From assembly GCA_020881915.1 (NCBI GenBank), contig JAJFPB010000006.1, positions 682,001 through 746,000 on the forward strand: a DNA stretch of 64,000 bases, in the 5' to 3' direction. Positions within the stretch are counted from its first letter, which is position 1. Each line of letters starts with the position of its first letter. Made by a program: the position numbers and the translations under genes. Below, piece after piece: positions 1,153-53,948 of the stretch. The DNA is from Paramyrothecium sp. XJ0827 (taxonomy: Eukaryota > Ascomycota > Sordariomycetes > Hypocreales > Stachybotryaceae). The notes beneath the pieces are model-generated. The model ran no database searches. It worked only from the letters and a program-made list of their open reading frames with translations, and was not told where the DNA came from.

Positions 1153-3135
1153 CAACTCCGAAGATTGAATGATATCTGGTACTCTCAATCCGACAATGAA
1201 TTTGCTCACAACCTGTTCTCCCGTGAGGACTGGAATTTCACTCGTCCCGCTTTGCCTACCTCAAGGCTCTGCGAGAAATGCAATGGTTTTGACATCACTC
1301 AGCCAGGCTTCAAAACCACTGAATTGTTGGACGATATTATTGCAAGATCCCAAATTTGCGAGCTTTGCGAGCTTTTTGCTCAAGCTGCGCAAGAGCTTGG
1401 CCTGGCCCTTGGCAGTGTATTTACGTGTCAGCGTAGTGGTCCCGTGCTACAGATACATACAGGCGCCGACAGTGCTGAAACAATTCTTTCCATTTATGCA
1501 GATCCAGGTACGATACCCATTAGACTTGAGAAATGTTGTTCTAATTGGACGTCCAGAACACCGCGTCCCTGCTCAGTGTGCTCAAGCTGGCTCTCCGCTA
1601 CTACCAGCTCCCGGTAGTCCTGCTCAATTTGCCATTATGAAAGAATGGTTGCGATTATGTCGAGACACTCATAATCATGGACAAACCAGCCAAGTCTCTG
1701 AGAATGGTAGCCAAGAGCACACCACAATGGAGCTTCCGACTCGTGTGGTGGATGTTGGAAGTTCAAACGATCCTAATTTGCGGCTCATCAACAGCAAGGC
1801 TATGAAGTCAGAAGAATATTTTGCTCTTAGTCATTGCTGGGGACGTGGAACTATGTTCAGAGCATTGAAGTGCAATTTTGAGACTCTTGAGAAAAACATT
1901 GACGTCGGCTCTCTTCCTCAAAACTTCCTCGACGCTGTCACTGTGACCAGAGCTTTCGGTGCAAGATATCTTTGGATCGACTCTCTTTGCATCATTCAAG
2001 ACGACGAGAAAGACTGGGACTATGAAGCTGCTCGAATGCAGCAGGTCTTCAGTAACGCAACGTGTGTACTGGCGGCCAGCTCGGCAAGTTCCTCGTCCGA
2101 GGGCTTCTTGATGACAGCTCGCCGACCTCGAAAGGTGGTTACGTTAAATTCTTCGCCAACCGCAACTCCTTTCATTACCGAGTTCATAGATGACTTTCAC
2201 CGAGATGTGGAAGAGGGTGTTTTGAACCAGCGGGGTTGGGTTCTGCAGGAACGCGCGCTCGCAAGACGCGTGATTCACTTTACAACAACTCAGATATACA
2301 TGGAATGTGGCAGAGGGGTTCAATGCGAAAGCTTGATGAAACTCAAGAAGTAAGACTCTTCTCACGATTTCACAATTCTATGCTAACTGATAGTAGTGAG
2401 AAAGCTGCTTTTCTGGGTGATTCCGATTTTCCCAATTCCATCATCCCTTACTACAAAGGCGGCAGGATTGTTCTTTTCCAAGATCTCTTCAAAATCTACT
2501 CCAGCCTCGGCTTCACGAGGTTCTCAGATCGCTCTGTTGCCATTTCTGGTCTTGAAAGGAGGCTGATGACCGCTTTCAAAACCAGCGGTGGGTACGGCAT
2601 TTTCGATCTATATTTGGAGCGAAGTCTCTTATGGACAAGGCCTGGGGATCAGAATTTGATCCCAATAGACTATCCAACCGGAAGAAAGGCCCCTTCCTGG
2701 TCTTGGATGGCTTACAAGGGCAGCATCTCCTATATCGAAGCTCCATTTGACAAGGTCCGATGGACCAAAGAATACATTTCACCCTTCAAAAGCACGGACA
2801 CGGAAAACCATGTATTCTGGAGCGCGAGCGGCAGCAGACCGATGCCGGTGTTGAAGTCCAATGCCGCACGGAAATTTGCTTCTGAGCAGGACGAGTCGAA
2901 TATTTTGAGCAGCATCAGATTCGACTCTAAAAGTCACGGATTTGCATTGGACCTGCTTCGGTGCATCGTTTTGGGCAGGGATATGCCAAGCCCGGGAATC
3001 ACGGAGCAATTAAATTATTTGCTAGTGATTACTGCCCCCTCAACCGAGACGGATCTTTATGTCAGAGTTGGTGTTGCAACCTTGCTGGACCCGATGATCA
3101 GCTGGAGCTCTACGGAGTATGTCGAGGTACACTAG
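1153..3135 (+). CDS. HET domain (heterokaryon incompatibility) protein or C-terminal half of a kinase-HET fusion
   Basis: Exons 1153-1507, 1557-2349 and 2394-3135 join in phase (1890 bp including the stop). Introns 1508-1556 and 2350-2393 have GT-AG ends, with branch-like ctaat and gctaac. The N-terminal part has paired cysteines (LCEKCNGF, ICELCELF) that often precede HET domains. The HET core is clear: FALSHCWG, then RYLWIDSLCIIQDD, an acidic segment, and ASSASSSSEGF, followed by RGWVLQERALARRVIHF. The C-terminal part has a PSWSWMAYKG motif, also usual in the family. HET proteins trigger growth arrest or cell death on non-self recognition in filamentous fungi. No ATG lies in frame between the acceptor ending at 1152 and the HET core, so translation should start upstream, most simply in the kinase gene. 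Confidence 0.85.
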
Positions 3136-3639: not shown

Positions 3640-4695
3640 CTAAATAAGCTCGGAAAATAGCTTGCCAGTATTCTGCCCCTTAAACAGCCTTATCCAAGTT
3701 TTGGGAATATCATCAAAAGCCGTCGGTATCACAGTGAGACTTTGATCCGTGGCCAGCAATTTTCCCTGGACATGTGCATCCATGAGCGCCTCCACGATCT
3801 CGCCGCCTCTCGACGGCGAAAGGTCCAAGAGGATGAAGCCAAGAATGCGCATACGCATTGCTATGACATGGTACCAATTTGTGATACCCCGATCCGTCAC
3901 ACCATTGTAATCCGCCACGGCGCCGCAAGCAATGACTCGGCCATTCAATGCAACGCGTGTAAGCATGAAGTTTAGGACTTCACCTCCAGCGTTGTCAAAG
4001 AAGACTTCAACAAACCCCTGCGTGGCGGCCGTGAGTTCTTTCTCAAAAGTTTTGCTCTTGTAGTTGACGCACACATCTGCACCGAGTGACTCAACCCAGC
4101 GGCACTTCTCATCCGTACCGGCGATGCCAATGACCCTCCTACACCCCAACACGTTCTTGGCGAGCTGGACGGCCGCAGAGCCAACAGCACCGGCCGCACC
4201 ACTGATAACGATTGCATCACTGGGTCCAACATTTCCTATATCAAAGAGACCGTAGTAGGCGGTCATCCCGGCCAGCCCGAACATGGCAACGAGGTGGACT
4301 GGCATCAAGCCGGCGATAGGCTTGAGTGGGGTGCAAGCATCTGCTGGAGCGACAACGTACTCGCACCATCCGCTCGCGTATGAGACCGTGGTTCCAACGG
4401 GCAGGTTGTCAGACTTGGACTGGACGACCTGAGCAACGGAGGAGAAGGACCGCATAGTGTCGCCGACCTCGACCGGGTCAACATACAGTCGGTCAGCTGC
4501 AATGTTGGGGTCGATCCACGCTCGCTGAGCCGGATCGTTGGACAGATATAGGATTTTTAACAGGACATGGCCATCCTCTTCTAGGCGCGGTGTTGGTTTC
4601 GTGACCAGCTGAAATGTGGCGTCAGGTCCAGAGAGGACAGGCCGGCCCTCAGGCTTCTTGGCCAGGATCCAATGTTGAGTAGTTTCGGGGATCAT
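3640..4695 (-). CDS. Medium-chain NADP-dependent oxidoreductase (leukotriene B4 dehydrogenase/prostaglandin reductase-like)
   Basis: A single-exon gene of 351 residues, the usual size of this family. I start it at the ATG on 4695 because the longer frame to 4800 only adds a hydrophobic leader unlike family members. The N-terminal GroES-like part contains LKILYLSNDPAQRAWI, typical of PTGR/zinc-independent MDR enzymes. A Rossmann motif GAAGAVGS lies at residues 166-173, after GLAGMTAYYGL. No zinc-ligand cysteine pattern is visible. The family reduces enones and related alpha,beta-unsaturated carbonyls with NADPH in the cytosol. The neighbouring Zn2Cys6 gene lies upstream in the same orientation and could regulate it, but this is only proximity. 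Confidence 0.9.
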   Translation of the reverse strand: MIPETTQHWILAKKPEGRPVLSGPDATFQLVTKPTPRLEEDGHVLLKILYLSNDPAQRAWIDPNIAADRLYVDPVEVGDTMRSFSSVAQVVQSKSDNLPVGTTVSYASGWCEYVVAPADACTPLKPIAGLMPVHLVAMFGLAGMTAYYGLFDIGNVGPSDAIVISGAAGAVGSAAVQLAKNVLGCRRVIGIAGTDEKCRWVESLGADVCVNYKSKTFEKELTAATQGFVEVFFDNAGGEVLNFMLTRVALNGRVIACGAVADYNGVTDRGITNWYHVIAMRMRILGFILLDLSPSRGGEIVEALMDAHVQGKLLATDQSLTVIPTAFDDIPKTWIRLFKGQNTGKLFSELI

Positions 4696-5255
4696 TTTGG
4701 GCAATAGAAGCCTAGAAAAAGGGATTTGGTGAAAAATGAGTATGATATTGTGAAGTCTTTTGCTGAGACTGAGGGTGAGTGGATTAGAGAAGTGCACCAA
4801 GAGCGAGGAGGGTGGAGGCTTATATACACAAATGCGGCTCAGACTTTTCAGTCGCTCTGTTGCTCATGACACATTGTGAGGAGGACCTCACCAGCACCGC
4901 AGCAACGTGGCCCACCTGCAACGAATTTCTGTTGATTTGTATAGAAGGGACGACCGACACAGAACCATTGGTTGCGATTGTTGGCGAGCAGAGTGGACCT
5001 CGTGGTGATCTGACTAATTTGACCCAGACCCGTGGTCCACCAGGTGCGGTGCTCCGCAAGCAAATTGTCAGCATGACAGGCCACGGCACCCCCTCATGCG
5101 GTCTTTACTTCGTCCCAGCAAAAACAATGCTTTAATTGTGTGCATGAAATATCTCAAACCGTGCTTGGGAAACAGAAACAGGAAAGATACAAAGAGGGAA
5201 TGGGCAAAGTTGAAGACGCCCAGACAAACCCATCCTTGCGCCAAATAGGATATGG
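4696..5255. other. Intergenic, reductase promoter side
   Basis: Contains overlapping opposite-strand open frames of about 80-107 codons without any recognisable domain. I treat them as chance frames. Confidence 0.5.
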
Positions 5256-6371
5256 TCAGTTTGGTGCAGAATCTAACAGAGTTTCTCTCCCTTCCACAAA
5301 TTCAAGACCTTTACAGGCAACAAGTATCAACTTTTCACACGGTTCGAGATGCTTCATCGGTGATGTGATCCAGCGACTGGTAAAATCTCCATATTTGAGG
5401 ATTCTCTCTTCGCTAGCGCTTCGGGTGTACGCATCGCGAGAATTCCAAGCCTCGGGTGTGGTTGACACAGGAAGCATTGCCATTACTGGAAGTTCCGAGC
5501 AAACGCCATAATCCAGCACAGACCTCATCGCATGAGTACAGATTAATGCCATCGCTGTCCGGCGTATGCTCTCAAAGACAATCCACGTCTCCCACATCGG
5601 TTCGGCTGTCCATTTCTCTGCTTCATGGCGTCGTACAAGTTTGAGGGCCCATGCCGCTAGACGGCCTCGGTGCAGCTCAGCCAATTGTCTCTGGCCTGCA
5701 TTGCTATGGAAGAGCCGGATGATCTGGTAGAGGACCATGGCCTGGAGCTTTGCCAGTTCCTCTTCGAGCGGCATGTATGTTTCTATGGGTGAGCTAAGTA
5801 TTTCAGATACCTGCGTCCCCAAAATTTCGAGCATTGCCGCCTCGTTGGCTTCGGTCTTGTGAGTAAAGGCAGCGCAGACCGTGAAGGCGGTTTGCAGTAT
5901 TCGTGAAGACAGGGCGTTTTGTAGCGCTGTCTTGTGAATGAAGAGAGTTTCAGCCTGGAGAGCGAAGTCTTGGGGACATGTTATCAGCTTTTCGGTAACC
6001 CATCCCCAGCTCTGTTCGATACCTGTCAATGGCTGTGGATCGCCTAGCTCCCCTGCTAGATTTGGGGCGAGATCTGGGAGACCTCTGTCGAATGACTCGA
6101 GGTTACCTGCGGAATAAAACGGTGGGGGGCGTTGGTCGTAAAGTGTTCTGGGCTCGGGAGAACAAGGGTGCGTCATGAAAATAGATTGGTCCAGAGAACT
6201 GCAAGAACTCGAGTGCGCAGCATTCAGCTCATCATTATCGTCTGGGATTGCAGAAACCGCATATTGACACGTTTTGCCAGTTTTTCGACATCTTCCGCAA
6301 ACCGGACGTGATAAGTCGCACTTACGTCTACTGTGAAAGCATGTATCGCATGATTGGCGAGGGAAAGGCAT
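5256..6371 (-). CDS. Zn2Cys6 fungal transcription factor
   Basis: A 371-residue protein if started at the ATG on 6371, just before the DNA-binding domain. The open frame extends to 6575 without homologous-looking sequence, and an ATG 12 codons upstream is a possible alternative. The zinc cluster is complete, with cysteines at residues 8, 11, 18, 25, 28 and 35 (CDTCFHSRRKCD then CGRCRKTGKTC). The middle region is acidic and serine-rich. The C-terminal half holds a WETWIVFESIRRT stretch that recurs in regulators near secondary-metabolism genes. The start faces the TPR-CHAT gene across about 200 bp, a possible shared promoter. Confidence 0.9.
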   Translation of the reverse strand: MPFPRQSCDTCFHSRRKCDLSRPVCGRCRKTGKTCQYAVSAIPDDNDELNAAHSSSCSSLDQSIFMTHPCSPEPRTLYDQRPPPFYSAGNLESFDRGLPDLAPNLAGELGDPQPLTGIEQSWGWVTEKLITCPQDFALQAETLFIHKTALQNALSSRILQTAFTVCAAFTHKTEANEAAMLEILGTQVSEILSSPIETYMPLEEELAKLQAMVLYQIIRLFHSNAGQRQLAELHRGRLAAWALKLVRRHEAEKWTAEPMWETWIVFESIRRTAMALICTHAMRSVLDYGVCSELPVMAMLPVSTTPEAWNSRDAYTRSASEERILKYGDFTSRWITSPMKHLEPCEKLILVACKGLEFVEGRETLLDSAPN

Positions 6372-6573
6372 TCTTGGTGTTGGAACAGAGCAGCAACAAG
6401 TTTGCATGAAGGGGAAAAACGGAAATAATCCCGCGGTGATCAAAGGAACACGTGACAAGCCGGAGTTTACGGAGTGACAAGACACCACTGTCCAGTCTCG
6501 CTCACTAATAAGTATAAGCCCCCACCTCTGGACCGCTGCGACGGCTAAATGTGGGTGTGGCCGGTCTTGATCC
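6372..6573. promoter_or_regulatory. Short divergent intergenic region between Zn2Cys6 and TPR-CHAT genes
   Basis: Only about 200 bp separate the two predicted starts, so promoter elements for both must lie here or overlap the coding ends. I identify no specific operator. Shared control is inference from the layout. Confidence 0.4.
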
Positions 6574-9500
6574 ATGTTCGAAACCCTTCAGAGTGGCCCC
6601 GTAATGGAGAACGAACGACCGGATGTATTCAAACGGATATACGAGCGTGCGCGCGCAAGCTTGGAGAGGGCTGGACAACGAGCCCAGAGCAATCGAGCAA
6701 ATCGAGTTGAATCACTCGGATTCAGGTCATACAGCCGTTATGAAAGTACAGGGGATGAGGCAGACTTTGAGCTGGCTTTGCAACAGCTCGATAACGCAGC
6801 CAAGATGACACCACATAATGACCCAGAACGCGCGTATCGTCTTCAGAACGTCGGCATGACGTACCACGAGAAATTCCGTAGAAAGGGGGCCATGGCGGAT
6901 CTTGAGTTGTCCCTCCAACAGTTGAAAGAGACCATCAAGTCAACCACCGATGATCATCCAGATCGGGAACGTCAGCTCCTCAATCTAGGCGTAGGATATT
7001 TTGATAAATATCAGAGAACAAGAGCAGATCAAGATCTCAAGCTAGCCACGCTACAGTTTGAAGAAGCTACGAGGATAGCGCCAGAGAGCCCGGAGCGGGC
7101 ACGTCAATTCCAAGGCCTTGAGCTCGCGTATCAGGATAGATACCGGAGCACAGGGGAGGATATAGATCTGGAAATGGCGGTTCAGCATCTTGAAGAATCC
7201 ACTATGGAAGTCCTCAATCATCCTCGGCAGGCAAGCCAGCTGGAATCTCTCGGTATTGGATACCACGCCAGATACCTGAGAACAGGAGAGGAGGCTGATC
7301 TCGACTTGGCTATCCAAGAGCTAGGACGGGCTCTCATAGCAACCCCACAAACGCACGCGGAGTGGGCAAGTCGTCTCGAATCTCTTGGGATCGCGTATCA
7401 GGCTAGGTACCAAATGACAAGAGCTGAAGCGGACTTGAAGCTGGCCATTCATTATTTCGAAGAGAATATCACGGCAGGGCCGTCTAACGGTTACTCGGCT
7501 AGGGCCGATCAGCTTCAGAATCTTGGGACCGTGTATAGTGATAAATACAAGAGAACTGGAGCAAAAGCGGATCTTCAGCTATCCATCCAGTACTTGGAAG
7601 AGGCTATCAAGGTAGTGCCCCCTGACCATCCAGAGCGGCTCCTCTGGTTCGAATCTCTTGCATCTGGCTATCATGATAGATACCTACAAGCAGGATCGGA
7701 GACGGATCTCCACCTAGCCATTCAGTACTTGGAACAAGCTTCCGAGGCAACCCGGAAGAACCATCCGAACCGGGCCCGTCAACTTGCTTCACTTGGTATC
7801 GACTATTACACCAGATACCTCCGAACAAACACAGAAGCTGATTTGGAGCTGGCGCTCCAGACACTCGAAAGATCACTCACGGCGACACCGGACAACCATC
7901 CGAGTCGAGCGAGTCGGCTCAGATCCCTTGGAGAAGTATACAAGGTCCGATACCAGACAACACAGGCAGAAGCAGACCTCAATTTGGCTATCCAATATTA
8001 CGAAAACGCCCTCGGCCACTCCTCAGGACGGGCTCTTGATCGGTTGCTCCCCGTCGGCGACTTACTCGCTCTGTATGCTGAATCGGAAGACTGGATACCA
8101 GCTTACAAAGCTGCCTCCACTGCGGTCTCTATCCTTGCACTACTGACGCCTCGCACCCTTGAGATCCCTGACAAGCAGTATCTGCTGTCCAGTTTCAGTG
8201 GCCTGGCTCTAAAAGCGGCCGGAATCGCATTGAACTTGGGGAAGACGCCACACGAAGCAATTTCTCTTCTTGAACTTGGTCGCAACATCATTATAGGCTC
8301 GCTCAACGAGATGCGTATTGATATTTCTGATCTGAGCCAGAAACATCCCCAGGCAGCAGAAAGGTTTATAACTCTCCAACGTCAACTTAATGCCCCGGCC
8401 AGTCGAGTCGAGCAATCCGATAGCCATTCGGCAGCAGTACGCAAGGGTAGTGAACGATCCAGAGCAAATATAGAACTGCAGAAAACAATACAGGATATCT
8501 GGACGTTACCCGGCTTTGATGGATTTCTCATAGCTCCATCTGAGCACGACATGAAGAAGGCTACCGGTGGCTCAGGTCTGGTCATCATTATCAATGTTTG
8601 TGACTATCGATGTGACGGGCTCATCATCGAGGCCCACAAATTTACATGCGTACCACTACCCAGGCTACATATAGATGACATTCGGTCGTATGCAGCAACT
8701 CTTGCAACAAGCCTGAACACGAACTTACTGGAGTGGCTCTGGGATACCGTCGCAGAACCAATTCTCGAGGCCATACAGATCGCTCCCGCGTCCAAAAAAG
8801 GACCCAAGGGCCCCCGTCTCCCGCGGATTTGGTGGATTCCTACCGGACCACTAGCTAGATTTCCGATACACGCGGCAGGGTATCACAATTCTGGAAGCGC
8901 TAACAATGCCGTCTTGGACCGGGCGATATCGTCCTATAGCTCTTCCATCAAGGCCTTAATTCAAAGTCGCCATATCCCGAGTGGTACCAGACGATCAGAG
9001 CAACAACAGGTCATATAAAGCCGTTCTTGTAGGCATGGAGCAGACACCAGGACAGTCGGGTCTTAGATTCGTGTCACCAGAGATGAACAAAGTCGACCGT
9101 CTCTGCAGCTCCATGCAACTGGAGGTGTCGCGTCCCGCCTCCAATCGTGGAGATGTTCTCTCTGCCATGGAGGACTGCCATATTTTTCATTTTGCAGGCC
9201 ATGCTCTGTCTCACAGACAAGATCCGTTGGAGAGCTCTCTAATCTTGAGCGACGGAAAATTAACTGTGGCAAATCTCTTTGGGACAAACCTTCAAAGTCG
9301 CAGGCCATTTCTTGCATACCTCTCAGCTTGTGGGACAGGACAAGTGAAGATGGATGGACTGATCGATGAGAGCGTTCATCTTGTCGCTTCGTACCAGATC
9401 GCCGGCTTCCGACACGTCATTGGAACATTGTGGGAAGTTGACGACCAATCCTGCCTCGATGCAGCCGCTCTCACATATCAGTGGATAAAGGACAATGATA

Positions 9501-9712
9501 TGACGGACGATTCCGTCAGCGAGGGTCTCCATCACACCAGTATAAAGCTACGAGAAAGGTGGATTGAACAATGCAGCATCAATAGGGCAAGCCGGACGTC
9601 GAGAATAGAACAGGCAAACTCGAGTCAGGGTATGGTGAGGGAGCCGAGAAACATTGAATTGTGTGAGGATGCTCCGCTCCATTGGGTGCCATATGTTCAT
9701 TTCGGGATTTGA
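6574..9712 (+). CDS. TPR-repeat CHAT (caspase-like) protein, reading frame interrupted near 8965-9018
   Basis: The first frame (6574-9018) encodes about ten degenerate TPR-like repeats of roughly 45 residues, with recurring LESLGIGYHARYLRTGEEAD-type units. The start of a CHAT peptidase domain follows (IWWIPTGPLARFPIHAAGY). The rest of the CHAT domain lies in the next frame to 9712. It has the catalytic His in FHFAGHA (His codon at 9200), the catalytic Cys in LSACGTG (Cys codon at 9329), and the IGTLWEVDD motif. The two frames must be one protein. A one-base frameshift explains it. A 55-bp intron (8966-9020) would also restore frame but has a poor donor and no clear branch point. CHAT proteins are caspase-like proteases. 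In bacteria, TPR-CHAT is the protease of type III-E CRISPR systems. In fungi, CHAT domains appear in putative non-self recognition proteins. Confidence 0.85.
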
Positions 9713-20179: not shown

Positions 20180-22710
20180 ATGCCGGCAGATTGCACGCCA
20201 ACATCAGCCTCACTATGCGCGACCACGAGCTCATTCGGAATTGCCGTCAGCAACGGCGCGACAAAAACGACGACGACACAGGTTAAATTGACATGCGCTA
20301 CCATCACGGGCTGTAACATTCGAGATGCTGATGCCACCAAATCCAGTGAAAGCTCTTGTAAATTGACACGCCGTGATGAAACCGAACTCCCCCAAGCCAC
20401 CGCAGCCACGGACTACCACCCTCTGGTTGCTCGGGCTGAGCCAGCTTGGTGCCGAGAAATGGACGGTGACCCTGATGGTATGGATTCATCATTCCCGAGG
20501 AAGGATGGAACAACGAGCACCAGGAGATCATCAAGAACGCCCTCAGAGGACGCGACACAGCCTTGGCAAGACGTAACATGAGAGCAGGTTTCCATGAGGT
20601 CCGGGCTAGGCAGTTGGGATTCACGGCTTATTACGTTGTTGAAAACATGGGTCCTGTCGCACTGGATTATTTTCGAACAGCGAATATTGCGGTAAGACTG
20701 GAGCATTCTTGGGTCAAGCCGTTCCAAACCGAGCGCGCTTGCCTGCATGTTATTCGCCCTGATGCACTAATGCAACTCAACAGGCTGTTAAAGTTTCCTA
20801 TGTCCAAACACCAAGGAGAAACGCTGGAAACTCAGATAACCTCCAGGCTGTGATTGACCGTCGTGGTCGTCAAGAAGACTCAAGGCACGACGCAAACCCT
20901 GGCAACGATACTGACGAAATTCAGCACGAACTCCATCGTAGAGGGTATCTTCCGATAGAGGACGATAACTGGCATTTATCGCAGCTGACTTTCCCTCGCG
21001 ATCGGGATTTGGACTTTGACAAAGACCAGGACAGCATAAACCATCATCCTAGTGCCAATAAATACGCTCAAAGATACGACGACAGCCGCGGCGAAGGCCA
21101 GACCATTTATGTCGTGGGGTCGATTATGATGAAAACAACAAGGTAGGAAAACTTTCATCATCCCGGTACGGGCAGCCTCGGTTCTACTGTCACATTTGTG
21201 TTAGGATTACGATCAAGCCAATCAAGGTGCACTGTATTCGGATTGGGTGCCGTTCCGGCAGATGAGCACTGCACACAGAAACCACGGAACTCTTGTATCA
21301 TCTTACGCCGTCGGTAAATCCCGAGGAATGGCGACGAATGCCAAGCTTGTGGTGGCAATGGTACGCATGTACAACCCGGGTAATTGGCACTACAGAGCGG
21401 AGTTGCTCGTCGATGCTCTCGTCAACATTGCCAACCATCTGGATGGCGACAAGAAAGACGATGACATAGAGAAGTACAAGTCCGTTGTCAGTATCTCTAT
21501 GAATCTCCCCTCGGACATCACGAATCAGGCCCTCTGGACAGTCATGAGTAAGTTGGCCCCTCAAACCGTGATTGCACCAATTTCGTGTCAATCAAAACTT
21601 CAGCTGAGAGAAACTGACTTTGAATCTACCCGCTTTAGGAAACCTAGTCGGTATCATGGACGAGAAGTACGGCACCACGTTTGTCACGTCGGCCGGCAAC
21701 TTTGAGCCACAGCAGGGTTGGAACGCGGTGACGTATCCCAAAGCTTTGTCGAATCGGAACTTGATCAGAGTTGGTTCAGTAGACAAGCAAGGCCGTAGGT
21801 CGCAGTTCAGTCTGGATGGTGCCGACGTGTATGCCGCGGGAAAAGGACTGTCCACACCGAAAGATTACACGGGAACCACACAGGGTATTTTCCGAGACGG
21901 AACGTCTTATGGTATGTTGAGCATGATTCCCGACACTCCCCTATCTTGAGAGTCTTCGTGTTAAAACAATTTGATGCAGCTACGCCTCTGGTGGCCGGTC
22001 TCGCTGCCTACATCCGCGGTCTTGGCCTGGACTGGGCCCAAACACCCGATGAGATTAAGGCTATGATCCTTTACCAGGCAAAACCGATCAAGACTTCGAA
22101 TGGTGGTACTGATGGAAAACCAAATGTTGCCTGGACCGGTTACAGTGCTTGCGTTCCACCAATCGTCAAACGTGGTCTGTCAGGTCGCCAAGACGAGGGT
22201 GATAACTGTCCCTTGCCAAGCAATCCCGGCACCGGGGCAGGCCCGTCGTTGCAAGGGCCTCCTGTCAAATACAGGCCTGGACCGCCTGGATTGGTGTGTG
22301 CTCAGAATTGTGGCAGAAAGTGCTACGGCTACTGTAGCCCCAGCGAAAGTATTGGCCAATGGCTGAGTCCCGTGGACAACAGCCAACCTGGGGGAGGCCA
22401 ATGGCTCAGTCCTGTGGACAACAGCCCACCTGGAGGCGGCAATCCCCTTGAGCCCGTCCCGCCTGCGGGGGGTGGTGTTGTTGTCATCGTGCCTAGTAGC
22501 GGCCCAGGCGTCACAGACGGCCAAGCGAACCCTACAGGCCCCCCGTCGAATTCAGAAGGAGGAGGTGGCGTGGTTGTTATTGCGCCTGGTAGTGGACCAG
22601 GTGTCACCGACGGTCATGTGAATCCCAATCGTGCAACGAGACTGGGCTGGCTTTTCTTGATTAATTTTTTCTTTGTTCGTGTTGGTACAGCCAAGCAAGT
22701 CTCGGCATAA
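20180..22710 (+). pseudogene. Subtilisin-like (S8) peptidase gene with two frame breaks; catalytic Asp motif lost
   Basis: Segments 20180 to about 20476, about 20477-20691, 20784-21117, 21119-21142, 21205-21547, 21639-21911 and 21980-22710 line up as one protein. Introns 20692-20783, 21143-21204, 21548-21638 and 21912-21979 are well formed. The N-terminal part has a Cys/Thr-rich stretch (CATITGCNIRDADAT) and then an I9-like region. The peptidase keeps the His motif NHGTLVSS, the oxyanion Asn in VTSAGN and the Ser motif GTSYATPLVAG across an intron. Two breaks interrupt it: a one-base shift near 20477 (before YGFIIPEEGW), and a shift at about 21117 right after GQTIYVV, where Asp-Thr-Gly is expected. 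A missing 7 bases there would explain both the shift and the lost Asp. The C-terminus is Pro/Gly-rich with duplicated units. Inactivation is likely unless the assembly is wrong. Confidence 0.8.
22330..22630 (+). repeat. Short internal duplications in the C-terminal tail of the S8 gene
   Basis: Two adjacent copies of a GQWLSPVDNS unit are followed by two copies of a GGGVVVIxPxSGPGVTDG unit about 96 bp apart. This is a low-complexity, recently duplicated linker or tail region. Confidence 0.7.
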
Positions 22711-23328: not shown

Positions 23329-24286
23329 TTACCTTTTTTGAAACGCCCACTTTTGGATATCTTCAAAGTTCCTACACGTATGGGAGATACCAATTCGTGG
23401 GACCAGTTTTGAATGTTCCTTCTCTTTCGACCACCGATACCATTGCGGCTCAACGTCTGCTGTACAAATGAGGCGTTGTCGCATGACTTCGATGCAATGA
23501 TCTGCACCACGGCCAATGCAGCGCCTTTAGTTAAATGCTTGCTAAATATGAGTCAGTCTACGTACCGATATGTTTCCAGCTCATCTTGTCTATCTTGCCA
23601 CTGGGAAACTGAAAAGTTGTGTTATAACGCTCGGGAAAGAAGCCCATGCGGACTATATTCTGATAGTGCGAGCATTAGCTCGCCGCGTCGCTTCATCTGT
23701 CAATGCACTCACCAGACAATGCAATTGATGAAATACGTCCAACGTCCCAAGGCAGTGGTCTTTTAAGCTATCCACGGGGACCTTTTCCGCATCCTCAGGT
23801 AGCTGGTCCTTGTCGATCTCGTCCGGGGAGATGGCTAGGTCAGTGCCCTCTGTAGGCAAGAAATTAGCTGACTAGTTTTGTTCAAGGTCGGTTGAGGAAA
23901 AGAAAGCTTACCGTTGTACATGGCCTGCCAGTGCGCATCGATTTCGTCATTGGGCCATCCTTGATATGGCGAGACATCGTCTCCAATAGCTGCCTGGAAT
24001 TTCAGCCGTTGGTATTTGATGAGATGAGCGGCGGGGGCTGTCGGTGTCAGCATACTAAATTGAAAATACGAATATTGGACCACAACGTCGCGAGATGATA
24101 CATACAGTGTCCGATGCTGGGGTCTTTGGTAGATGACCAAAGTCGGGATCCAATGACGACGAGGAGTGCTGTCAAAAAGGCGTTGAACACAAGGGAAATA
24201 ATCAGCCAATATTTTCTTGGCGCACTCAATCTATCCAACAAACGTCCCTCCCGCTTGTCCCCGAGGAAAGGCTCACTGTCATCCAT
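23329..24286 (-). CDS. UstYa-family (DUF3328) oxidative cyclisation protein
   Basis: Five exons (24286-24106, 24037-23912, 23849-23713, 23659-23566, 23501-23329) join in phase to 236 residues, a normal length for the family. The N-terminus is a short acidic cytosolic segment (MDDSEPFLGD), followed by one transmembrane helix at about residues 25-48. The two family motifs are present: HQLHCLN (His143/His146-Cys147) and HIDHCIE (His178/His181-Cys182), each placed at an exon junction. Other landmarks are SPYQGWPNDEID, GFFPERYNTTFQFPSGK and LICTADVEPQWYRW. UstYa proteins work in the biosynthesis of ustiloxin, asperipin, phomopsin and related fungal RiPPs, where they make oxidative crosslinks on core peptides. 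The divergent precursor gene 1.2 kb away makes that the likely role here. Some UstYa relatives serve nonribosomal peptide pathways. Confidence 0.9.
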
Positions 24287-25459
24287 TTCGTCAACAGGAA
24301 ACGTGAGCAAGCCAGACTCCAAAAATGTTTCCCGAGTAGTAAGTAAAAGAGCAATCGGTTAGTATCGGCTCTCGCAGGAGGAAGTTCGAAGCTTTGAGCT
24401 GCGCCATTTCTTTGCCTCTCGCTTCGGTTTTCCAGAGAGTCCCGATCCATACCAAACATTGCGTTGCCGAGCTTTCCAGTGTTCGGGAAAACGCCATGGG
24501 ATCCTTCATGTCGTAAGATATGCGTCCTCAACCGTCGTTGGGTCTGCAGTTGCAGCGGCCCGCACTTAGCTCCACGGCAACCTTGGAAGAATGGGACGAT
24601 CACCTGTTTCGGGAAGGTCCTTTTGAGAGCGGCCGGAATACCTTACCCACCGAAAGCCGCTTCTGATCCACATCAGACCAGCGGCGCGGAAAAGATAATT
24701 GTAACCAGCTTGGAAATCCAACGAATAGTTCTTAACCGTGATTGAGTAGCATTGCCAATGTCAATTGAGTGTAGTACAGGGTGTATATGTGAATTTTGCA
24801 GGGAGCAGGGCTTAAGAATGGCTGTCCATTTTCTGCCTGCGTTGTGGCGTAGTTAAGCGAAAATATCAACATGCACTGCTTGCATCATTCAATTTGAACA
24901 TGAATAACAGTTGACAGAAAACGTGCCACGTCTTTTTGAAGACGTAATTACCTTTGGAAGCTTCCCATGATTGGCTATACTGGGTATTTTGGGACCGTGG
25001 CTTGCATCACGTCTCCCTGGATCACTGGCTGGAGTGGACCAAAGTAGGACAAGTATCAGAACCAATGACACATCACTTGCAGGCATCTCCAAGATCTTTC
25101 GCTCTTACATACGAGGAGCACCGCAAACTTGGCAACTATGATCCCAGTCTGCACTGTCAAAGGAGGGGTGACAGCCAATTCTGATTCGACTTTATGCGAG
25201 CGTAAGCTGTCGTGACAATGGCGGAATATTACACCAACCCAGAATGCCTTCCGTTCTAAGCCGTAGATGACTGAATCGATCCTTGTCTTATTGCCAGTCC
25301 AAGTACAAATAACCATGACTCCGACTTCGAGAAACTAACACCACGACAGCATCGCCAATTCCCTCTAACACGAGAAGCATAGGTGAGTTCCTTTGTATCA
25401 CCAAAGAGAGACCATTCGACTTAAACCGATAGAATTTCGAGACTTAGATTATCGTCAAC
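24287..25459. promoter_or_regulatory. Divergent intergenic region between UstYa-like and repeat-precursor genes
   Basis: The two starts face away from each other over about 1.17 kb, compatible with co-regulation. A possible 5'-UTR intron of the precursor gene runs 25383-25432 (gtgagt to gatag). No binding site is identified. Confidence 0.4.
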
Positions 25460-25792
25460 ATGAAGTCAGCTACTTTCGGAGCCTTCTTGGCCGTGTTTGG
25501 CCTGGCCGTCGCGGCCCCTACTCAGACCACTACCGACGTCAAATCAGGCGAGGAGGCCAGCGCAGACGGTGCTTTCTTTGTCATCAACTGGAAGCGTGAC
25601 GAGAAGCCCAAGGCAGTGGATGAGGCCAGTGCGGACGAGGCGTTCTTCGTTGTCAACTGGAAGCGCGATGCGCCCGTTCCAACCCCTGAGGACCAGTCTG
25701 CCGATGGTGCCTTTTTCGTAATCAACTGGAAGAAGCGGGAGGCATTCCCTGTCGAGCAGGGAAGCGACGGCTCTTTCCGCACTCCCCAGTGA
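25460..25792 (+). CDS. Kex2-processed repeat precursor, candidate dikaritin-type RiPP precursor
   Basis: A complete 110-residue protein. Residues 1 to about 18 form a signal peptide (MKSATFGAFLAVFGLAVA). Then come three repeats spaced exactly 23 residues (69 bp) apart, starting at residues 34, 57 and 80: SADGAFFVINWKR, SADEAFFVVNWKR and SADGAFFVINWKKR. Each ends in a dibasic Kex2-type site. The linkers are acidic and vary, while the cores are nearly identical (FFVINW, FFVVNW, FFVINW). Signal peptide, tandem cores and KR sites define fungal UstA-type precursors, and the adjacent UstYa gene supplies a matching enzyme. The core differs from the ones I recall (ustiloxin, phomopsin, asperipin). 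It lacks the paired Cys of alpha-type mating pheromones, the main alternative. Product and crosslinks are inference. Confidence 0.85.
   Translation: MKSATFGAFLAVFGLAVAAPTQTTTDVKSGEEASADGAFFVINWKRDEKPKAVDEASADEAFFVVNWKRDAPVPTPEDQSADGAFFVINWKKREAFPVEQGSDGSFRTPQ
25560..25740 (+). repeat. Three tandem 69-bp core-peptide repeats
   Basis: The repeats lie inside the precursor gene. The period is 69 bp, with the conserved part covering the core and KR codons and the linker less conserved. Copies one and three share the FFVINW core; copy two has Val for Ile. Confidence 0.85.
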
Positions 25793-26708
25793 AGTGCCTG
25801 ATTCGTGAAGGACCAGGTCAGGAACCAGAGCCCATTGCATTATTAGCAGTTGATGGAACTGGGGATACCACTGAGCTGGAGAGATCATCGCGCCTGTAGA
25901 AAGATAAGAAAAGAAAAAAGACGTTAAGCCAATATTGAGGATGAAATCGATTGCCGAATTGGCACATGCTGCAGTTTCCATGAATTGCTTGCAGCGCTTG
26001 AATTATCAAATTGACTGCCAAAGGTCTGGTCAGATAACGGAAGAGTCTCAAGCCGCAGATGAATAAGGCAGAGTGTATGTAATCTCATAATTGATTCTTT
26101 AGTATGGGGTTTGCAATATTGCCATCACTACTCAAGTGGTTGCGTCATCTTGAGTTCGGAGCCAAAACACAACACCCAAGTTGGGATCGAGAACGCTATA
26201 GGGTAGCTAGAACACAGCATGTCCACCCCCCAATCACCACCACTCTTCCCTCCAGCATTCCTACCACCCTTATTGGACCAAAGGCTCAGAAAATTGGGAA
26301 ATATTGCTAAAAGAATCGACCGAAGGTGAAGCGTAACTAAATACCTGTGTAGTACCGGTACCGGATTACCTTTACGCTTCTTTGCCTTGCAATCCACTTC
26401 CAAGACTCAAGATGCCTCCTAGTACAGTGGTGTTTTATTTAACTTGATCACCTACCTTCGTTAGGTGATAGTAGACTAGCTGACCCTGCAAGTGCTACCC
26501 ATGGATTAGGTCTAGACCATGACATAGTTCAAGCTTAGACTCTTAGGCCCAAGCAAGCCAAGGTAGGCAGAAGCCACACTGGCGTTAGCAGACCTTGACG
26601 GCTCCCCTCTTTTCCCGATTGCCGCCCGGTTATCTTGTCCACCCACACCCCTGGGCCTCTCAACCGCCAAGCCGCTCAACCTGCCATTTTCATTACACTG
26701 CCTGTGGG
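25793..26708. other. Intergenic between precursor and bZIP genes
   Basis: About 0.9 kb. Short opposite-strand frames only. No supported gene. Confidence 0.5.
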
Positions 26709-51601: not shown

Positions 51602-53948
51602 TCATACAATAACTAATTCTTCAATCTCAGTGCCGGCAAAATAGTCTCTCTTCCCTTCGTCATTGTAATACCCCCAAAGCCCGACTTTTTCCCATGCTCC
51701 CTCCACCGTACTCGATGGCCCTAGTGCCAATGCATACCGCGTATATGTCCTATTCTCTGCATCAGGCGTGGTGATTACGAATGCAAGTTTCACGGTCGCT
51801 TTGTCAACCATCTTACTTGCCGCACCCTGCGCACCTCTTTGGACCATGGTAAGAGTTGAGCCTTGTGGTGTAGTGTACTCTGTTGAATCGAATGAGACGT
51901 CGGGTCGGAAACAAAATGGCGTTTCATACTGATCATGACGTAGTGAGACAGAGGAATCGGAGAATGAGAGCCGGTATTGCGGAGTGCCCTTCGCATCGTG
52001 TTTGAGATTGATTGTCGCCTCGAATGTGGGACATTCGACCTTCAAGTAACCAGATTCCAGCTTGCCGCAAGGGTCCACGCCTGCGAGTGAGACATTAGCT
52101 TCGAGGAAAATCATGTGCTGCTGCCGTCCTGGCACCTCGGAGAAGGCTTCACGGATATGGCTTGTCACTTTTCCATCGATGGATGCCCATGACCAGCTCG
52201 GTGCTCGATATTCAGCTGCCACCTGTGCAGATTTCGTGTAATCGTGCTCCCAGTCGAACTTTCGCCCGGGAGGGTTACTCCGCGCTTCCTCAGTAGACCA
52301 CAGAAGACCCAAGCAAAGGTCTTCCTTCCACAGACCAGCAAGATAGGTATCTCCTGTCTGCTCTGCGACCTTCGTCGCGATGCCCGACAAAGCTGGCAGT
52401 TTATCCATCCCAAACGTGATGGAGAGACGGCTGTATTCCTCCACGACGTAGTATTTCCACCACGCATAGATACCTTCGCCACTGCTTTTCATGTATCTTT
52501 GCGAGATTGATAGCGGGCGCTCGCTGCCCCACGATTCGTTTTGGTAGTTGTCCAGCCCTTCACATTCACAAGTGCGTTTGGCGCGGCATTCCCAGACCAT
52601 CTCATCGTTCTCAAAGAAAACAAGACGTTTGGAGAGCAGTCGTTCTTGAAGGACCCAGGCGCGCTGGAAGAGAGGGTGCGCGCGGTTGTGCTTTGGCTGG
52701 CGACGGACTTCGAGGTTAGAAACTAGCTCCGGAAGTGAGGGGAGTGTGTTTGCCATGCTTTTCCGTGGATGAGTTCGAGCGCCTAGAAAGCCCTCACGGT
52801 CACTGGTCGCAGATGCGGCAGCTATGGTGAGTATTGCATTCGAGTAAACGCCGCACATCTTTGAAGCTTCATTTTCCCAATCCCCGGGGTCGTCCTGGAT
52901 AATGCACAAGGAGTCGATCCATATATGTCGGAATCCGAGAGCTCTGGCGACAATCATGGCGTCATTGAATGTTTTAGGTATGCCGGGCATGTCGAGTTCT
53001 GTCTTCATGGCGGAGAGGTTTGAGCGTAGGGTTCGATAGGTCTGGTCGGGTCCCCAGCAGTGACTCAGTGCAACATAGGCACCAATATCGCCGGGAGTAG
53101 TTTCCATAAGCCGAGGAGGATTTGCGGCGGCTGGGTCACCGACTTGGATCAGCCTGGTGGGCAAAGGAGATGGTATGGGTTCGCGACATTCAGAGTGCTT
53201 TGTGGTACAGTCTGTAAGCCATTCCTTGATTCTGTCTATGGATTCTTGAGAGCCTGAATCGGAGGACACACGTCGACTTGTTCCACTAGCACACGGTCTT
53301 GTCAGATTATCCATATCAATTAGTCGCGGACGTTGGTTCTTTCAGTCAAGGTTTACTCAACCGAGATGATTCCATTCCTGATAGGTATAAGGCTTGGTTC
53401 ACTCAATTCCATCATATGGCTACAAACAACGAAAAGGTAATGTCTTACAATGTTGGCCAAGGCGGTATCTTACCTGAAGTTAACTCGTCAGCTTGAATGC
53501 TTTAATTCTCTCTTCTCTCAATGAAAGAAGAACATTATGCCCACTCACCGAACGGTGTGTAGACCCGTAGATTCACCTCCTCCGCCCTTCCCCATGTCGC
53601 GTCATTAATTAGCAGGCCCCAGCCTGTCGGGAAATACACGTTGATAGTCGCATTCTCCCTTATCAGGAAATCAGCCTGCAAATAAGCCGCCAGCAGAATC
53701 AAGCTGCAGTATGGGCAGCCTTGCAGGTTTGGTCCCGCAGACTGTGCAAAGACCAACATCCTGGGGTAGCCTTCGATGCTGCGGCCTTCGTCTGGATCCT
53801 TATGCACGACACGCTGATTGCGTGCTAGGTCCAGACAGGTACTGCATGAGGGCGCTGGGTTTGCGATGGCTGCCGTCAGACCTCGTGCCGTGGACCAGAG
53901 GCCGCGGAGGGCTCGGCGGGTCGCGGAGTTGTGACTGCCTGAAGACAT
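51602..53948 (-). CDS. HET domain (heterokaryon incompatibility) protein
   Basis: The main exon runs from about 53350 to 51602, and a 5' exon covers 53948 to 53542. The 5' exon encodes the cysteine-bearing leader often seen before HET domains (SCSTCLDLARNQRV, GCPYCSLIL) and ends at a consensus donor (gtgagt at 53541). The main exon has RLIDMDNLTRPCASGT, then the HET core: YVALSHCWG, FRHIWIDSLCIIQDDPGDW, ASATSDREGFLGART, and the RAWVLQERLLSKRLVFF and PSWSWASIDG motifs. The exact splice between the exons, roughly 53541 to 53350, is not resolved: the consensus donor phase does not match the best acceptor, so a small extra exon may exist. Expected role: cell death or growth arrest on non-self recognition. 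Confidence 0.85.

Follow-up and report, generated by a model that had tools for sequence, protein, structure and literature searches.

A candidate two-gene, single-UstYa dikaritin-type peptide locus with a tyrosine-free core in Paramyrothecium sp. XJ0827

Described dikaritin systems and the Paramyrothecium locus

Among described dikaritins, asperipin-2a of Aspergillus flavus is built on a hexapeptide core (compare FFVINW at the locus treated here). The locus consists of a UstYa-family gene and a small repeat-precursor gene in a 64-kb stretch of the genome of Paramyrothecium sp. XJ0827 (C12:682001-746000, hereafter the window; genome 51.8 Mb in 15 contigs). We consider it probable that this pair is a minimal two-gene, single-UstYa module for a ribosomally synthesised and post-translationally modified peptide (RiPP) of the dikaritin type, with a new Tyr-free core.

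Asperipin-2a likewise combines one UstYa gene with a signal-peptide-bearing repeat precursor carrying Kex2-type sites (PMC7329392), but its rings use Tyr side chains (PMC9233826), of which the window core has none. The ustiloxin and phomopsin pathways also join UstYa-family enzymes to a repeat precursor with Kex2 sites, but they contain two and five UstYa genes, respectively (PMC7329392), against one in the window, and involve a tyrosinase and Tyr-Ile ethers (PMC7329392, PMC9233826), whereas no tyrosinase match is listed in the window, the nearest ones listed on the contig being about 50 and about 75 kb away. Victorin of Cochliobolus victoriae has a Tyr-free core closed through a Phe side chain (PMC9233826), as a ring in the window product might be, although in victorin a C-terminal Phe is joined to Leu and the peptide is chlorinated (PMC9233826), whereas the window core has Phe at its N-terminal and Trp at its C-terminal end, with no further tailoring gene recognised in the scan of neighbouring genes described below.

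The window precursor also fits the wider definition of Kex2-processed repeat proteins (KEPs), namely a signal peptide and at least three repeats of at least 8 residues between dibasic sites (PMC7329392 section 13), its signal peptide being judged by hydropathy and its three repeats lying between dibasic sites. DUF3328 neighbours were reported for 1,758 of 7,878 such proteins, UstYa genes peak adjacent to repeat-precursor genes, and UstYa-linked repeats contain Tyr in 65.6% of cases, hence lack it in about a third, and contain Trp in 20.5% (Umemura 2020, PMC7329392). Tyr in the core is thus usual among dikaritins, not defining, and the window core is without it. The initial annotation had called the core unfamiliar, and neither FFVINW and FFVVNW nor KPSIWL and NNQAGWG were found in the literature text searched (5.39 million papers in the case of FFVINW), supplementary KEP tables being outside it; a Tyr-free core is nevertheless less unusual than was supposed, because victorin and about a third of UstYa-linked repeats have no Tyr. 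The core sequence appears to be new, but asperipin-2a already provides a pathway with a single UstYa and victorin a core without Tyr, and the locus therefore adds to an existing type.

The precursor and its UstYa-family enzyme

The locus has the layout by which dikaritin systems are recognised, a repeat precursor beside a UstYa-family gene, and the ORF (open reading frame) list and exon model reproduce exactly the coordinates first assigned to both genes, as well as their divergent spacing of about 1.2 kb between start codons (Table 1). In agreement with the initial annotation, no second UstYa-family gene occurs in the window; among the PF11807 matches listed, the others on the contig lie about 1.5 Mb away.

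Table 1. Coordinates of the window locus and repeats of the precursors found at UstYa loci of the same genome
Feature	Position	Strand	Details
Precursor gene	25460..25792	+	110 aa, intronless; ORF with repeats, hydropathy
Core repeat 1, SADGAFFVINWKR	25559..25597	+	precursor residues 34-46
Core repeat 2, SADEAFFVVNWKR	25628..25666	+	precursor residues 57-69
Core repeat 3, SADGAFFVINWKKR	25697..25738	+	precursor residues 80-93
Divergent intergenic region	24287..25459	.	1,173 bp, start codon to start codon
UstYa-family (PF11807/DUF3328) oxidase gene	23329..24286	-	5 exons, 236 aa; HQLHC and HIDHC
UstYa exons	24286-24106, 24037-23912, 23849-23713, 23659-23566, 23501-23329	-	four GT-AG introns
Precursor repeats FFVINW	window
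Precursor repeats ADAREKPSIWLREE	C15
Precursor repeats ESTNNQAGWG	C8
Precursor repeats YKLYVDPS/YKLYSTE	C5
Precursor repeats HHQGAKTNANANGRKNRNGNN	C9:4742k
Precursor repeats VAYGRHTDDVPTVPTE	C9:4992k
Precursor repeats GDPILDINVNEDESSYA	C1
Precursor repeats ADGF/SDGY	C10

The precursor begins with a signal-like N-terminus with an Ala-rich cleavage region, in agreement with the signal peptide first proposed (judged from hydropathy only). A short acidic segment separates it from the three repeats, which read SADGAFFVINW-KR, SADEAFFVVNW-KR and SADGAFFVINW-KKR. Their consensus is SAD(G/E)AFFV(I/V)NWK and each copy is closed by KR or KKR. The repeats had been described as exact with a period of 23 residues; the period holds, their starts being 23 and 23 residues apart, but the copies are near-identical, not exact. 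An antisense ORF (25544-25981, minus strand) overlies the precursor, with LPVD(N/D/Y)-type motifs that mirror the sense repeats.

Tandem Repeats Finder did not report the array, since its copies have diverged at the DNA level. Pairwise comparison of the three copies over 12 codons (S to K) gives 8, 9 and 10 base differences in 36 and 2, 0 and 2 residue differences in 12, with synonymous differences (pS) of 0.85, 1.00 and 0.80 and non-synonymous differences (pN) of 0.08, 0.07 and 0.15. Most of the base changes affect the third position of sense-frame codons. When substitutions were placed at random, replacements as few as those observed arose in 0.14%, 0 of 20,000 and 0.005% of runs for the three pairs, a test flattered by the choice of the 12-mer for its conservation, of which the saturation of silent sites is independent. 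Near-saturated silent sites combined with a conserved peptide therefore indicate that the repeats are old and that selection acts on the peptide, SAD stretch included, and not on the DNA.

The UstYa-family gene was described as complete with both HxxHC-type motifs, and this is borne out by the full splicing of the gene, a PF11807 match of 154.1 bits against a cut-off of 25 (E=6.7e-45) and motifs HQLHC at residue 143 and HIDHC at residue 178 of the spliced protein. A profile-to-DNA spliced alignment reproduced the intron lengths of 68, 62, 53 and 64, and a single N-terminal hydrophobic stretch occupies about residues 27-46 (19-mer at 28, mean 2.57). H143, H146, C147, H178, H181 and C182 are invariant across 16 aligned UstYa sequences. 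By its title, a 2025 study by Chiang is said to concern the copper dependence of UstYa enzymes; no solved structure was found for the window protein by sequence at E<=1.

Searching protein databases with both genes, as had been suggested, returned no relatives of the precursor at E<=10 among 5.8 billion proteins (124 word-sharing candidates) and 16 homologues of UstYa at E<=0.001, the best at 42% identity; an orthologue turned up for neither gene in these searches, and no Stachybotryaceae occur among the 12 named of the 16 UstYa homologues. The precursor, which is single-copy in its own genome and matches no Pfam family above its cut-off, is thereby only weakly indicated to be absent elsewhere, because gene predictors often miss small repeat precursors. 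The GH67 protein of the window, by comparison, is 92% identical to a Paramyrothecium foliicola protein and 84-87% identical to four Stachybotrys entries (among the best 120 of 7,992 matches), which agrees with a most likely place of the fungus in the Stachybotryaceae (Hypocreales). Since relatives are thus represented in the database, the locus looks accessory, although their annotation may be incomplete.

Pairing of UstYa genes with repeat precursors across the genome

At least 28 exon-level PF11807 matches were found in the genome, where such counts are lower bounds, and these group into 15 loci. We examined 309 kb of DNA, comprising the 64-kb window and 245 kb from the other 14 UstYa loci (10-30 kb at each), with two detectors, one requiring three or more dibasic sites, each with a similar 8-mer ahead of it, and the other requiring repeats behind a signal-like N-terminus. 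The first recovered precursors at 7 of the 15 loci, with no further array in the window, and the second added the C15 locus, bringing the number of UstYa loci with a repeat precursor to 8 of 15 (Table 1). A signal-like start lies in the same ORF in three of the eight (window, C15 and C8) and upstream in another frame in four, and none was found for the C5 precursor.

The distance from precursor to UstYa model is 0.6-1.93 kb in all eight cases. As 28.8% of the 309 kb is that close, the probability of eight out of eight under even placement is 0.288^8 = 4.7e-5, or 5.7e-4 for the seven of seven that remain when the window is left out, figures that apply to DNA which outside the window was chosen around UstYa genes, in stretches ending about 5-20 kb from them. 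Divergent orientation to a UstYa gene no more than 2 kb away is seen in seven of the eight (relative to the nearest such gene in six, to the second nearest in C10), while the C5 precursor is in tandem. The remaining 7 of 15 loci, four of them examined over 10 kb only, yielded no repeat precursor. Because 8 of 15 UstYa loci hold a precursor, every one of them within this short distance, chance is an unlikely explanation of the pairing.

Several of these precursors have features of their own. On C8 (L022:2504-3112, plus strand; C8:562203-562811), about ten ESTNNQAGWG-(K/R)R repeats with a period of 16, containing Trp and no Tyr, lie divergent from a UstYa gene, and on C5 (L013:5222-5986, plus strand) the precursor with YKLYVDPSKR and YKLYSTEKR stands among four UstYa-family genes. 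A di-histidine repeat precursor on C9 (L015:7152-7793, minus strand; HHQGAKTNANANGRKNRNGNNKR) adjoins a UstYa gene and recalls the di-His UstYa-linked types of PMC7329392, and further precursors adjoin UstYa genes at L017:6606-7580 (minus strand; VAYGRHTDDVPTVPTEKR), L024:2092-2646 (plus strand; GDPILDINVNEDESSYAKR) and L027:9864-9998 (minus strand, running into L028; ADGFKR/SDGYKK). Three other rows of the second detector were set aside, one being a wrong-frame reading of the C9 array, another a low-complexity ORF at L024 and the third the antisense strand of the precursor in the window. Dropping the signal requirement yielded mostly other frames of known arrays; a TPR/CHAT protein and the subtilase tail in the window, together with short rows in L010, L031 and L032, were left uncounted.

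The closest UstYa paralog in the genome is on C15 (C15:2623791-2624594; L031 about 4292-5268, minus strand), and with its precursor spans C15:2623791-2625882. The two enzymes are 51% and 52% identical over two domain pieces and 29% over the N-terminal piece, or 48-49% over about 170 alignment columns. The C15 precursor (L031:6102-6386, plus strand) is likewise intronless, secreted and divergent from its UstYa gene, and carries four 17-residue repeats that contain Trp and no Tyr. The C15 locus repeats the pair without the other window neighbours, neither a subtilase nor a bZIP-like gene being seen by eye among the ORFs listed in L031, and the unit common to both loci is therefore the two-gene module.

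Trp-containing precursors occur at the window, C15 and C8 loci, and the relationship of their enzymes was addressed with two trees. The first, of 14 of the 16 database rows and 19 own-genome UstYa genes of at least 120 aa, set the three Trp-core enzymes apart from the rest by a single branch (96/97; 2 of 500 shuffles), the group having been named after the cores were seen. On the best tree of the second, built from 23 own-genome genes, C8_560 fell outside this group; the three came together in 14% of bootstrap trees, and a constraint uniting them was not rejected (p-AU 0.31). The only firm grouping is the sister pair formed by the window and C15 enzymes (100/97 and 98/96 in the two trees), a clade of all three being possible. 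A bacterial promoter scan of the divergent region, inapplicable to a fungus, gave nothing useful beyond shuffles.

Neighbouring genes, proposed product and alternatives

An S8 subtilase gene of several exons (21205-22710, plus strand) begins the neighbourhood 0.6 kb past the 3' end of the UstYa gene; its joined pieces match Pfam at E=1.2e-18 and a single piece at 1.3e-5, and its Gly/Pro-rich tail is encoded with 42-bp tandem repeats. On the other side, a bZIP-like gene at 26.7-27.9 kb was recognised by eye and has no bZIP Pfam match. We weighed both as possible members of the cluster but did not include them; by eye, neither was seen among the ORFs listed around C15. Farther away are genes for an aldo-keto reductase, an SDR, zinc-cluster regulators and TPR/CHAT, WSC, GH67, PALP and HET proteins; the TPR/CHAT gene (6571-9712, plus strand) and the HET-domain genes (1169-2353, plus strand, and 51602-53341, minus strand) might mark a self-recognition neighbourhood. 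Among the 33 of 53 ORFs with 100 or more residues scanned between 14.0 and 37.7 kb (4 of them in part), a scan that multi-exon genes with short exons could escape, no methyltransferase, transporter, tyrosinase or second UstYa gene was recognised. The tyrosinase, second UstYa and tailoring genes of the ustiloxin and phomopsin pathways, which do not define dikaritins, thus have no recognised counterpart in the ORFs scanned.

We posit the following route from these genes to a product. The precursor would enter the secretory pathway, where Kex2 would cleave after each KR or KKR and a carboxypeptidase would remove the basic residues, releasing peptides that end in ...SAD(G/E)AFFV(I/V)NW. UstYa, anchored in the membrane of that compartment and probably holding a metal with its HxxHC pair, would then oxidise FFV(I/V)NW, most likely, by analogy with related families, to a side-chain ring. 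The ring bond of ustiloxins and phomopsins is made at a beta-branched carbon. In the window core the sole variable residue, Ile or Val, keeps its beta-branching, and for this reason our guess for the likeliest bond is one that joins the side chain of Phe or Trp with the beta-branched Val3 or Ile/Val4. The N-terminal SAD stretch could serve as a recognition sequence or be trimmed off. Because no tyrosinase, methyltransferase or second UstYa gene was recognised nearby, the product may be a lightly decorated secreted peptide, monocyclic or else dehydrogenated or hydroxylated.

The module is supported by a precursor with Kex2-type sites, a complete divergent UstYa gene, selection on the peptide and the same layout at C15. 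Pair layout, recurrence at C15 and the 8 of 15 loci thus uphold in part the dikaritin-type reading first proposed; the modification, the cyclisation and the Phe/Trp link that went with it are hypothetical. Several points weigh against the module as we describe it. The case draws on the sequence of one genome, and the core has no Tyr. An AlphaFold model of a UstYa homologue (P0005) has a mean pLDDT of 54.8 and a pTM of 0.32, too poor to judge a metal site. Beyond its signal region the C15 precursor contains no KR, RR, KK or RK, so that a Kex2 step is not common to the paralogous loci. Leader similarity gave p=0.03 for window and C15, 0.64 for window and C8 and 0.145 for C15 and C8; as one of three comparisons alone reached p=0.03, no homology between the window and C15 precursors is claimed. 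Finally, the divergent regions of the three Trp-core loci have no 7-9-base k-mers in common beyond those in shuffles.

That UstYa modifies the core without closing a ring, by dehydrogenating Val/Ile or hydroxylating the core, seems to us rather unlikely. By its title, a 2021 study by Sogahata is said to show UstYa proteins of the phomopsin pathway installing dehydroamino acids, which would favour such an uncyclised RiPP. Hydroxylation or chlorination by UstYa relatives is also described (PMC12048977), but nothing at this locus speaks positively for an uncyclised product, and in asperipin-2a, a dikaritin with a single UstYa, the enzyme cyclises (PMC7329392). We think it improbable that the precursor yields a linear Kex2-processed signal or antimicrobial peptide while UstYa acts on something else; 78% of the 7,878 KEPs have no nearby UstYa gene (PMC7329392) and a core without Tyr would suit a linear peptide, but the close divergent pairing recurs at the nearest paralog and genome-wide.

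The signal peptide, repeats and Kex2 sites would also suit a mating pheromone precursor, one of the outcomes named at the outset as refuting the RiPP reading. Ascomycete alpha-pheromone precursors repeat the pattern WCxxxGQxCW, which is absent from the window precursor. A probable alpha-pheromone gene with a signal-like start and five WCLRPGQSCW repeats is found instead on C8 (C8:991190-991768; L038:943-1752, minus strand), the pattern having one further single match, on C14. Because this separate gene exists, a pheromone role for the window precursor is very unlikely, and UstYa genes lie near none of 227 yeast-type precursors and near 3 of 216 others of the pheromone group (PMC7329392). That the ORF encodes a repetitive protein of the cell wall or of a structural kind, or persists by chance, is hardly credible, for although no homologue of the precursor was found and an open frame also runs along most of the other strand, the changes between copies fall mainly at third positions of the sense frame, dibasic sites follow every copy, and the product is only 110 aa long with no Pfam family above its cut-off.

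Beyond the two-gene module itself, we entertain, as a possible but doubtful extension, that one UstYa alone makes a Tyr-free Trp/Phe-Val/Ile macrocycle and that the window and C15 loci form a sub-family of two-gene Trp-repeat modules that travel and diverge as a unit, one form being without Kex2 sites and cut by another protease. With precursors at 8 of its 15 UstYa loci, this genome is a promising place to look for unexplored RiPP pathways, a wealth that is not unique, nine dikaritin clusters being described in Venturia inaequalis (PMC9632046). Its two genes and hexapeptide-like core would make the window locus an easy test of single-UstYa cyclisation without Tyr, and the window and C15 loci, in which related enzymes stand beside unrelated cores, may serve as a probe of how UstYa enzymes recognise their substrates.

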